Assembly (NCBI RefSeq): GCF_000235565.1
Contig: NC_017527.1
Coordinates: 186,001 to 250,000, forward strand
Direction: 5' to 3'
Source of the DNA: Methanothrix harundinacea 6Ac
Lineage (GTDB): Archaea; Halobacteriota; Methanosarcinia; Methanotrichales; Methanotrichaceae
DNA: 64,000 nucleotides
In this document: in pieces, positions 26,096-29,187 of the stretch
Position numbering within the stretch: the stretch's first letter is position 1
Layout of the letters: every line of letters begins with the position of its first letter
The notes under the pieces: generated by a model
The model's input: the letters and a program-made list of their open reading frames with translations, nothing else
What the model was told of the DNA's origin: nothing
The model's database searches: none
Made by a program: the position numbers and the translations under genes

Positions 26096-26245
26096 CGCCG
26101 GGGTTGGGATTTTCCTGGGAGGGCTTTCCCGCCCCCCCATTTTGAACCCAAGCGTCCCAGAAGGGACAACAGGTCTCGAGCCTGCCGCGTTTGGACTCTT
26201 CAGACCCCTTGGAGACAGAAGATTAGTCCGCTCTGCCACCCCGGC
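26096..26245 (-). tRNA. tRNA-Ser(CGA) with two non-canonical introns
   Basis: Class II tRNA on the minus strand: acceptor GCCGGGG (26245 down) pairs with CCCCGGC, discriminator G at 26096, no encoded CCA. The anticodon arm GCAGG-CTCGAGA-CCTGT gives anticodon CGA, and the long variable arm GTCCC-TTCT-GGGAC marks a serine tRNA. Two insertions break the standard form. One is in the D-loop between GGACTAA and ACGCGG (about 31 bases), where GGACT/AGTCC and CTTC/GAAG pair with 3-base bulges AAT and AAA: a good bulge-helix-bulge. The other is in the T-loop between TTCAAA and TCCCAA (about 29 bases), containing a 9-bp hairpin. Removing both leaves a normal T-arm; the D-stem keeps one A-C mismatch. 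Confidence 0.85.
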
Positions 26246-26350
26246 TCCGGAGCTTCTTCTTCAAGCTTCTGGTTTATATCTGTTGGCCCGGCCCCCTCCA
26301 GCAGGATAGGCTTATGTGGGCGGGGCGCTAATTCCCGGCGGGAGATTTGG

Positions 26351-27574
26351 ATGGCCCTTCGAGATGATGCGCTGGAGTTCCACCGGAAATCAAGGGGTAA
26401 GATAGCCATAAAGAGCAAGGTGCCCTGCAGCACCCGCGAGGACCTGAGCCTCGCCTACACCCCCGGCGTCGCCGAGCCCTGCCGCGAGATCGAAAACGAT
26501 CCGGATAGGATCTACGACTACACCGCCAAGGGGAACCTGGTGGCCGTCGTCACCGACGGGACCGCGGTTTTAGGCCTCGGCGACATCGGCCCTGCGGCGG
26601 CGATGCCGGTGATGGAGGGCAAAGCGATCCTCTTCAAGGAGTTCGCCGACGTCGACGCCTTCCCCATCTGCATAGACTCAAAGGACCCCTCGGTGGTGGT
26701 GGAGGTGACCAAGAGGATATCCACCGTCTTCGGCGGGATCAACCTGGAGGATATAAGCGCCCCCCGCTGCTTCGAGATCGAGGACCGGCTGAAGCGGGAA
26801 CTGGATATCCCCATATTCCACGACGACCAGCACGGAACCGCGGTGGTGACGGCCGCCGCCCTCATCAACGCCCTCACGATCGTCGGAAAGGGGTTCGACG
26901 AGGTCCGGGTCGTCACCAGCGGGGCGGGGGCGGCCGGGGTCGCCGTCTCCAACTTCCTCATGAGCTTCGGCGTCGAAGACCTCATCCTCTGCGACAGAAA
27001 GGGGGTCGTCCACGAGGGCCGCGGCGACCTGAACCCCTCCAAGATGGAGATGGCGAAGATCACAAACCCCACTGGGGTGACCGGGTCCTTAGCCTGCGCC
27101 CTGGAGGGGGCCGACGTCTTCGTCGGGGTCTCGGCCCCGGGGATCGTATCCGAGGAGATGGTGAGGTCCATGGCCAAAGACTCCATCGTCTTCGCCATGG
27201 CCAACCCCGTCCCCGAGATCATGCCGGACCTGGCCAAAAAGGCCGGGGCGAGGGTCATCGCCACCGGCAGGTCCGACTTCCCCAACCAGGTGAACAACGT
27301 CCTGGGCTTTCCCGGGATCTTCCGGGGAGCTCTGGACGTCCGGGCGAGGGACATAAACGAGGAGATGAAGATGGCGGCGGCGAGGGCGATCGCAACGCTC
27401 GCGGAGCCGATCTCCGAGGACCGGATAATCCCCTCCCCCTTCGACCGGCGGGTGGTTCCGAAGGTGGCGGAGGCGGTGGCGAGGGCGGCGATCGAGTCGG
27501 GGGTCGCGAGGCTAGAGGTTGATCCTGCGGAGGTGGGCCGGAGGGCGGCGGAGAGGATCGGGCTATCGGGGTAG
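26351..27574 (+). CDS. NAD(P)-dependent malic enzyme
   Basis: 407-residue malic enzyme (malate to pyruvate and CO2, with NAD(P)). It starts MALRDDALEFHRKSRGKIAI after a GGAGATTTGG ribosome site at ATG 26351; the in-frame extension back to 26072 would run antisense through the tRNA-Ser gene. Motifs: CSTREDLSLAYTPGVAEPCR (with the catalytic Tyr), VTDGTAVLGLGDIGP, GKAILFKEFADVDAFPICID, PIFHDDQHGTAVVTAAAL and the Rossmann site TSGAGAAGVAVSNF. The last third is duplicated in a decayed form at 28618-29187. Confidence 0.93.
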   Translation: MALRDDALEFHRKSRGKIAIKSKVPCSTREDLSLAYTPGVAEPCREIENDPDRIYDYTAKGNLVAVVTDGTAVLGLGDIGPAAAMPVMEGKAILFKEFADVDAFPICIDSKDPSVVVEVTKRISTVFGGINLEDISAPRCFEIEDRLKRELDIPIFHDDQHGTAVVTAAALINALTIVGKGFDEVRVVTSGAGAAGVAVSNFLMSFGVEDLILCDRKGVVHEGRGDLNPSKMEMAKITNPTGVTGSLACALEGADVFVGVSAPGIVSEEMVRSMAKDSIVFAMANPVPEIMPDLAKKAGARVIATGRSDFPNQVNNVLGFPGIFRGALDVRARDINEEMKMAAARAIATLAEPISEDRIIPSPFDRRVVPKVAEAVARAAIESGVARLEVDPAEVGRRAAERIGLSG

Positions 27575-27869: not shown

Positions 27870-28417
27870 TGGATCCGATCAGCGAAGATGAGCTCGGCAT
27901 TGAGCTTTTGAATGCCAGGTACAATCTATCGCTTTTTAATTCAGGAGACGCAGAATTGGATGATTTTCTTAAGAATGATGCCTTAAAAGAACAACAAGAA
28001 CTCCTGAGCAAGACCCATCTATGTTTCTACAAAAACCATGTCGCGGGTTTTTTCACAATAACGGCAGACTCAATACGAGTAAAAAAGGACAGACTGGATG
28101 AAAGCCAGATTGTCGAGGACTCCGAATATCCCGCCTATCCCTGCATTCTAATTGCTCGATTGGCCATAGACAAAAGAGTACATAAACGGGGTATCGGAAA
28201 ATTTTTGCTGTTGCTCATAATAGGTTTTGCCCTTGAGGGACCATTAGGATGTCGATATCTATCAGTTGATCCCAAAACCGACGCGTTAGAATATTATAAA
28301 AAATTCGGGTTTAACTTCTGGACCAGCAGCAAGCGAAGGATGTACTTGAATATTAGAGATGTTGCGCGGGAACTGAGACCTGATGAATCATTGGATCCTT
28401 GGATAACGAACGAATAG
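27869..28417 (+). CDS. GNAT-family acetyltransferase, probable toxin
   Basis: 182-residue GNAT protein. Acetyl-CoA-binding region: LIARLAIDKRVHKRGIGKFL (strand then the R-x-x-G-x-G/A loop), followed by LSVDPKTDALEYYKKFGFNF. The N-terminal ELDDFLKNDALKEQQELLSK and the AGFFTITADSI strand are characteristic of TacT/AtaT-type toxins that acetylate aminoacyl-tRNA. It is coupled to a small partner gene by a TGATG overlap. It is noticeably lower in GC than its neighbours, a sign of recent transfer. The catalytic outcome is a family inference. Confidence 0.8.
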   Translation: MDPISEDELGIELLNARYNLSLFNSGDAELDDFLKNDALKEQQELLSKTHLCFYKNHVAGFFTITADSIRVKKDRLDESQIVEDSEYPAYPCILIARLAIDKRVHKRGIGKFLLLLIIGFALEGPLGCRYLSVDPKTDALEYYKKFGFNFWTSSKRRMYLNIRDVARELRPDESLDPWITNE

Positions 28418-28455
28418 TCCATGATAAAGAAGGCCTCGAAAAAGAGAGGGTGAGG

Positions 28456-28623
28456 TCAGAGGACGTCCTTCTGGACCTCGCTCCTGATGTCCTCGAAGTC
28501 GACGAAGTGCATCCCCGAAACCTCCCGGAGCTCCCGGGCGATGAACCGCTTCGTGGACATGACCATGAACCTCTTAACCCTCGCCTGGAAGGGCTTGAGG
28601 GGCTGCTCGAAGTCGCCGTCTCC
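28456..28623 (-). pseudogene. 3' fragment of an NYN-domain gene
   Basis: On the minus strand, about 56 residues closely match the end of the intact protein encoded at 32139-32648: GDGDFEQPL...ARVKRFMVMSTKRFIARELRE and on to VQKDVL. There is no start region. The fragment is joined head-on to a malic enzyme fragment at 28612-28620. It keeps high similarity near its 3' end and is more diverged toward the joint. Not expected to be functional. Confidence 0.85.
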
Positions 28624-29187
28624 AGGTTCCTGATGAGCTTCGGAGTCCGCGACATCGTCCTCTGCGATAGCTTGGGCGTCATTCACCCCGGCCGCTCCGA
28701 CCTCAACTCCTCCAAGATGGAGATGGCAAGGATCACCAACCGCAAAGACAAGACCGGCTCCATCGCCGAAGCCATGGATGGCGCGGACGTCTTCGTCGGG
28801 GTCTCGGCCCCGGGGATCGTATCCGAGGAGATGGTGAGGTCCATGGCCAAAGACTCCATCCTCTTCGCCATGGCCAACCCCGTACCCGAGATCATGCCGG
28901 ACCTGGCCAAAAAGGCCGGGGCGAGGGTCATCGCCACAGGCAGGTCCGACTTCCTCAACCAGGTGAACAACGTCCTCGGCTTCCCCGGGATCTTCCGGGG
29001 GGCCCTGGACGTCCGGGCGCGGGAGATCAACGAGGATATGAAGATGGCGGCAGCCAGGGCGATCGCAAGACTCGCAGAGCCGATCTCCGAGGAGTGCATA
29101 ATCCCCTCGCCCCTGGACCGGCGGGTGGTGCCGAGGGTGGACGAGGCGGTGGCGAGGGCGGCCGAGAGGATCGGGCTATTGGGCTAG
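28618..29187 (+). pseudogene. C-terminal fragment of malic enzyme
   Basis: About 190 residues matching the last 45% of the intact malic enzyme (26351-27574): SRFLMSFGVRDIVLCDSLGV, GADVFVGVSAPGIVSEEMVR, AMANPVPEIMPDLAKKAG, VIATGRSDFLNQVNNVLGFP and so on to RIGLLG. The N-terminal catalytic half is missing. The frame stays open and could be read from antisense NYN sequence upstream, but that fusion is an accident. Blocks of near-identity with the parent (for example around 28795-28860) next to diverged blocks suggest gene conversion between the copies. Confidence 0.88.

Follow-up and report, generated by a model that had tools for sequence, protein, structure and literature searches.

The window analyzed here is a stretch of 64,000 nt from the genome of Methanothrix harundinacea 6Ac (2,571,034 bp in two contigs, 99.9% complete). 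Positions 26096 to 26245 contain, on the minus strand, a tRNA-Ser(CGA) gene that runs from 26245 to 26096 with exact ends and holds an insertion in the D-loop and another one in the T-loop. The whole precursor gene is 150 nt long, includes the discriminator G73 and does not encode CCA. Its parts, all on the minus strand, are as follows. Exon 1 extends from the 5' strand of the acceptor to A21 (GCCGGGGTGGCAGAGCGGACTA; 26224 to 26245), with the junction fixed by intronless orthologues, and is followed by the putative D-loop intron of 33 nt (26191 to 26223), located between A21 and A22 (site 21/22). Exon 2 (26141 to 26190) spans A22 to A59 and comprises the anticodon arm, the variable arm and the 5' strand of the T-stem; the CGA anticodon, positions 34-36 of the tRNA, is at 26176 to 26178 as assigned by ARAGORN on the spliced sequence. 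The putative T-loop intron of 31 nt (26110 to 26140) lies between A59 and U60 (site 59/60), and exon 3 (26096 to 26109) consists of U60, the 3' strands of the T-stem and the acceptor, and G73.

The native locus is recognized neither by ARAGORN nor by the Rfam model RF00005; an Rfam scan near the locus yielded no tRNA match, and the element that it did report, an unrelated HCV element, is below the threshold. With the 33 nt and the 31 nt taken out, the sequence is 86 nt long (GCCGGGGTGGCAGAGCGGACTAACGCGGCAGGCTCGAGACCTGTTGTCCCTTCTGGGACGCTTGGGTTCAAATCCCAACCCCGGCG) and ARAGORN names it tRNA-Ser(cga); the program fails when neither insertion or just one is removed. A covariance model of the mature tRNA-Ser(CGA) of relatives (17 rows, the spliced window sequence among them) matches the locus over the full length (86.6 bits, E 1.1e-16), the sole insertions being those in the D-loop and the T-loop. 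Both ARAGORN and the covariance model recover, once the insertions are removed, a cloverleaf with a long variable arm, the CGA anticodon and G73. These results, together with 22 loci from the same family described below, bear out the claim of an earlier note on this DNA that a tRNA-Ser(CGA) gene is broken in both loops.

A TATA box identified by conservation, GATATAAA, is located at 26273 to 26280 on the minus strand, corresponding to -35 to -28 relative to the 5' end of the tRNA, within the block AACAGATATAAA; it is kept upstream of the gene in nearly all relatives from the family Methanothrix/Methanotrichaceae (hereafter f1), with diverged flanking bases. Downstream, on the same strand, are genes for an L40e-like ribosomal protein (under the Pfam cut-off) and a PcrB-family protein similar to geranylgeranylglyceryl phosphate synthase, and a divergent malic enzyme gene (26351 to 27574) is also a neighbor. 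Near this intact gene, a second malic enzyme-like frame, apparently truncated and dissimilar to the enzyme in its N-terminal part, occupies positions 28399 to 29187.

The sequence of the locus matches its own genome once. RF00005 detects 43 other tRNAs, with a serine set of GCT, GGA and TGA (assigned with ARAGORN and by eye) and no tRNA-Ser(CGA) among them. A second intact gene of this kind had been set beforehand as grounds for refutation, and none was found in this 99.9% complete genome. The GGA and TGA serine tRNA genes carry introns in the anticodon loop, and ARAGORN mislabels loci L105 and L100. The intron of tRNA-Ser(GGA) (L098, G000:C2:469417-469512), judged against intronless relatives, is just 12 nt long (TTCTCTACTGAA). 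Also absent among the 43 RF00005 matches are tRNA-Tyr and tRNA-Trp, and introns may mask both genes from this model.

Register and conservation of the two insertions

The D-loop insertion can adopt a bulge-helix-bulge (BHB) structure in which a central helix of 4 bp, formed by GGAC of the exon and GUCC of the intron, is flanked by the bulges UA^A and AA^A, and UCUUC pairs with GAAGA in the inner helix. As outer helix there is just the D-stem, 2 bp long and set off by an internal loop; the motif is closer to the relaxed HBh' form than to the strict hBHBh' form. In all 76 distinct gene sequences with this intron, GGAC is invariant and the intron strand (GUCC, GUUC or GUCU) pairs with it, giving 4 bp with 3+3 nt bulges in each case; the 5' bulge reads UAA, AAU, AAA, AAG, CAA or UAU and the 3' bulge AAA, AUA, UAA or ACA. 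Thus, the BHB proposed in the earlier note stands, with its register changed from a 5-bp helix GGACU/AGUCC with bulges AAU and AAA to the 4-bp helix GGAC/GUCC with bulges UAA and AAA; the 5-bp central helix was rejected from the comparison of relatives. The predicted D-spliced product, GGACUAACGC, is identical, letter for letter, to the D-arm of intronless orthologues, which read GGACTAACGC, the exact predicted splice product.

It is highly improbable that the gene contains two introns with other D-sites, either those of the earlier note (GGACUAA^U..., with the 5-bp helix) or exons joined as GGACUAAU followed by GC, which would restore an A12-U23 pair. Taken by itself, the window does allow the U preceding or following AA to pair with the same A, and joining ...AAU to GC gives A12-U23, a pair that exists in some relatives. 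However, the GGACAAU, GGACAAA and GGACAAG of relatives fit only the 4-bp register with three-base bulges, and it is this register that leaves the bulge bases staying in the exon, A21 and A22, invariant throughout, with the bases leaving with the intron free to vary. Moreover, intronless orthologues from the same class have A12-C23, and EndA is known to cut symmetrically, behind the second base of each bulge. The A12-C23 mismatch previously noted in the spliced D-stem is real; because it is found also in intronless orthologues, it is ancestral and inherited, and the base editing at position 23 suggested along with it is unnecessary, given that intronless orthologues carry C23 or U23.

In the T-loop insertion, the T-stem serves as the outer helix, the central helix UUCA/GGAA consists of 3 bp and an A.G apposition, the bulges are AA^A and AA^U, and the inner helix has 9 bp; the 9-bp hairpin described before is this inner helix, and splicing would yield UUCAAAU, the loop (TTCAAAT in DNA) that removal of the hairpin had been said to restore. 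Among 39 T-introns, GAA on the intron side always complements UUC (39/39), and the fourth position is A.G in 30 (GGAA), G.G in 1, and paired in 8, where UGAA gives the full 4 bp. The bulges are of 3+3 nt, AAA, AAU or AAG on the 5' side and always AAU on the 3' side, with UUCAAAU as the predicted product.

Across the 39 distinct f1 gene sequences, the exons are near-invariant, and the introns differ in both size and sequence, showing compensatory changes. The inner helix of the D-intron in f1 is 89.4% paired, compared to 77.8 +/- 2.0% with partners swapped, and that of the T-intron is 81.7% paired, compared to 73.6 +/- 1.2%; none of 2000 shuffles reaches the observed pairing of either helix, in a control that retains shared ancestry, and in slid alignments the pairing drops much lower. 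Folding is less telling: the D-BHB is the minimum free energy structure when folded locally and is not in the full-length precursor, where its pair probability is about 0.34, that is, approximately one third of the ensemble, and where the T central helix is weak, with a pair probability of about 0.01. The evidence for the putative introns is comparative and does not come from folding energy. A box C/D guide or another RNA gene within the introns appears unlikely, the introns being mostly 30-47 nt long with unconserved loops.

The failure of standard finders on the native locus and the presence of a tRNA-Ser(UGA) gene (L105) could be taken to indicate that this is a decayed or silent gene interrupted by insertions, with tRNA-Ser(UGA) reading UCG by wobble. 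We consider this even less probable than shifted D-sites: near-invariant exons, introns that vary with compensation and a conserved promoter argue that the gene is not dead. Least probable of all is a functional 150-nt tRNA that retains both insertions in expanded D- and T-loops, as could be imagined from the very stable hairpin of the T-loop insertion and the thermodynamically weak central helix, given that the elbow nucleotides G18-G19 and U54-U55-C56 are pulled apart or buried by the insertions, that both insertions show BHB features with constraint on the bulges split between exon and intron, and that intronless orthologues correspond to the spliced form.

Distribution among relatives

A BLAST search with the locus against 40 relatives found the gene in 22 of the 25 f1 genomes, M. 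harundinacea included, with both insertions in all 22; the remaining three, one of which is an incomplete draft, gave no BLAST match. Thus, all recovered f1 relatives have two introns outside position 37/38 (at sites 21/22 and 59/60), and comparative genomics supports the earlier proposal of two non-canonical introns in one tRNA of a methanogen. A scan of named records, which partly overlap with the assemblies of the BLAST set, yielded 36 records with both introns, labeled Methanothrix, Methanosaeta, Methanotrichaceae or unspecifically, and 35 with the D-intron only, labeled Methanolobus, Methanococcoides, Methanohalophilus, Methanohalobium, Methanosalsum, ANME-3, GoM-Arc1, Methanosarcinaceae or unspecifically. 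The Methanothrix thermophila record (G023, L049) has both introns, and the relatives with the D-intron only have a plain TTCRAAT T-loop.

The D-intron is present, with A12-U23, in another family of the same class (f4, L186) and also in a genus from another class of the phylum (f8). In f8 (L128, L130, L153, L181, L216-L220), it is minimal, about 16-17 nt, and is inserted at the same site; the variable arm of this tRNA-Ser(CGA) is lengthened to about 46 nt and its fold resembles a second BHB intron, so this may be a further tRNA with two introns, the second of them at another site. The D-intron of the GoM-Arc1 group (L064, L170, L174) is 17 nt long, with a 3-bp inner helix and a 4-nt loop, and is near the lower size limit for a BHB intron. 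In families f5 and f7, tRNA-Ser(CGA) is intronless, and in f2 (L190) the D-arm lacks the intron and the anticodon loop holds a 17-nt insertion. Three large, Methanosarcina-like genomes (L195, L196 and L197, from genera g31, g19 and g18, respectively) encode a different, intronless type of tRNA-Ser(CGA) (GCCCAGGTAGTCTAGCGG... in L196 and L197), which suggests that a non-orthologous gene replaced the intron-bearing one in this group. Being common to species across the class, the D-intron would be the older of the two, and the T-intron was probably gained in the ancestor of Methanotrichaceae.

Splicing enzymes and the predicted maturation pathway

The genome contains a single EndA gene, an ORF of 352 aa with two PF01974 (tRNA_int_endo) repeats, which are the sole matches of this kind in the genome, and one gene for the RtcB ligase. 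With both repeats in one polypeptide and no separate gene for a beta subunit, the enzyme belongs to the alpha'2 class, and its best PDB matches are to the A. fulgidus EndA (1r0v/2gjw, alpha'2). Two PF01974 matches were found in each of the 40 relatives. The crenarchaea-specific loop (CSL), an additional loop close to the active site that gives EndA broad specificity, is absent from the EndA sequence, which aligns to native AFU without the insertion of 3p1y, a structure that we take to be a CSL chimera.

Considering what can be read from the sequences, namely the gene, the positions of its parts, the conservation, the covariation and a D-junction identical to that of intronless genes, we assign a probability of about 0.93 to the reading that this is a working, single-copy tRNA-Ser(CGA) gene whose 150-nt precursor has two BHB introns removed by EndA, with RtcB joining the exons. 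The precursor would be transcribed from its own TATA promoter, and EndA would cut each three-base bulge behind its second base, that is, at GGACUA^A...AA^ACGC in the D-arm (site 21/22) and at UUCAAA^A...AA^U in the T-arm (site 59/60); ligation by RtcB would then produce an 86-nt tRNA-Ser that reads UCG. Counting against this reading, the central helices are poorly represented when the full precursor is folded, as given above, and an alpha'2 EndA without the CSL would have to act on a D-motif that appears to lack a continuous outer helix and on a T-motif that usually contains an A.G in its central helix.

On the exon side, both central helices draw on elbow nucleotides: G18, G19, A20 and C20a on the D side and U54, U55, C56 and A57 on the T side. 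In tRNA, the elbow is held by the contacts G18-Psi55 and G19-C56. The BHB form of the introns and the D-loop/T-loop elbow would therefore be mutually exclusive, with the elbow forming only after splicing, and splicing should precede all elbow-dependent steps. With both halves of the elbow sequestered by introns, it can be tentatively proposed, at somewhat less than even odds, that an entire family with a plain alpha'2 EndA relies on a pair of non-canonical introns within one single-copy tRNA and that splicing serves as an obligatory folding checkpoint ahead of elbow-dependent maturation. If true, such reliance would break the published rule that equates alpha'2 EndA with a single canonical intron.

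Relation to known tRNA introns

Under that rule, an alpha4 or alpha2 EndA in Euryarchaeota goes with a single tRNA intron, in the canonical position (PMC4090602), and the idea that the architecture of the enzyme determines intron diversity builds on it (PMC4090602, PMC4033280). The euryarchaeal multi-intron tRNAs listed are, besides those of ARMAN-1 and -2, only from Methanopyrus and Methanothermobacter (PMC4033280). PMC3218864 mentions, without names, three thermophilic euryarchaeal methanogens with non-canonical introns, possibly including Methanothrix thermophila. The alpha'2 class is said to handle relaxed motifs poorly (PMC6379350, PMC4033280), with efficient cutting of such motifs limited to other EndA classes (PMC6379350), and homodimeric EndA is credited with cutting BHL-like motifs (PMC8707768). 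Our literature search found no paper that connects tRNA introns to Methanothrix or Methanosaeta harundinacea and none describing this gene. By default, tRNAscan-SE 2.0 looks for such introns in archaeal genomes (PMC8450103), so tRNA databases may already list it.

It is well supported by the sequence comparisons that these would be introns of a known type in an unexpected lineage. Methanotrichaceae, which are among the most important acetate-using methanogens, would then represent a family-wide, inherited exception to the one-canonical-intron rule, with the D-intron extending the exception to much of the class. The different, intronless tRNA-Ser(CGA) of the model genus Methanosarcina would mask these introns from work on that genus. 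The rule itself becomes testable with an alpha'2 enzyme, natural substrates whose central helices have 4 bp or contain A.G, introns as small as 17 nt and, for controls, orthologues that lack introns. The locus is also a warning that common tRNA finders overlook a gene that looks essential.

Introns in the anticodon arm of tRNA-Pro constitute the multi-intron case of Methanothermobacter. Methanopyrus kandleri and Methanothermobacter thermautotrophicus resemble M. harundinacea in being euryarchaeal methanogens listed with multi-intron tRNAs (PMC4033280) but belong to other lineages, and the EndA of M. kandleri is (alpha beta)2 (PMC6379350). In Thermoproteales (Pyrobaculum, Thermofilum), tRNA genes similarly hold two or three BHB introns each, many of them at non-canonical sites (PMC4033280, PMC3218864); however, those introns are many, spread across many tRNAs and served by an (alpha beta)2 EndA, whereas here a single isoacceptor is involved, with vertical inheritance and a two-repeat alpha'2 enzyme. 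The closest parallels within the genome itself are the canonical 37/38 introns of tRNA-Thr(CGT), tRNA-Lys(TTT), tRNA-Gly(TCC) and tRNA-Cys, which are small, similar in size and presumably processed by the same EndA but, unlike the two introns of tRNA-Ser(CGA), occur singly and adjoin the anticodon.
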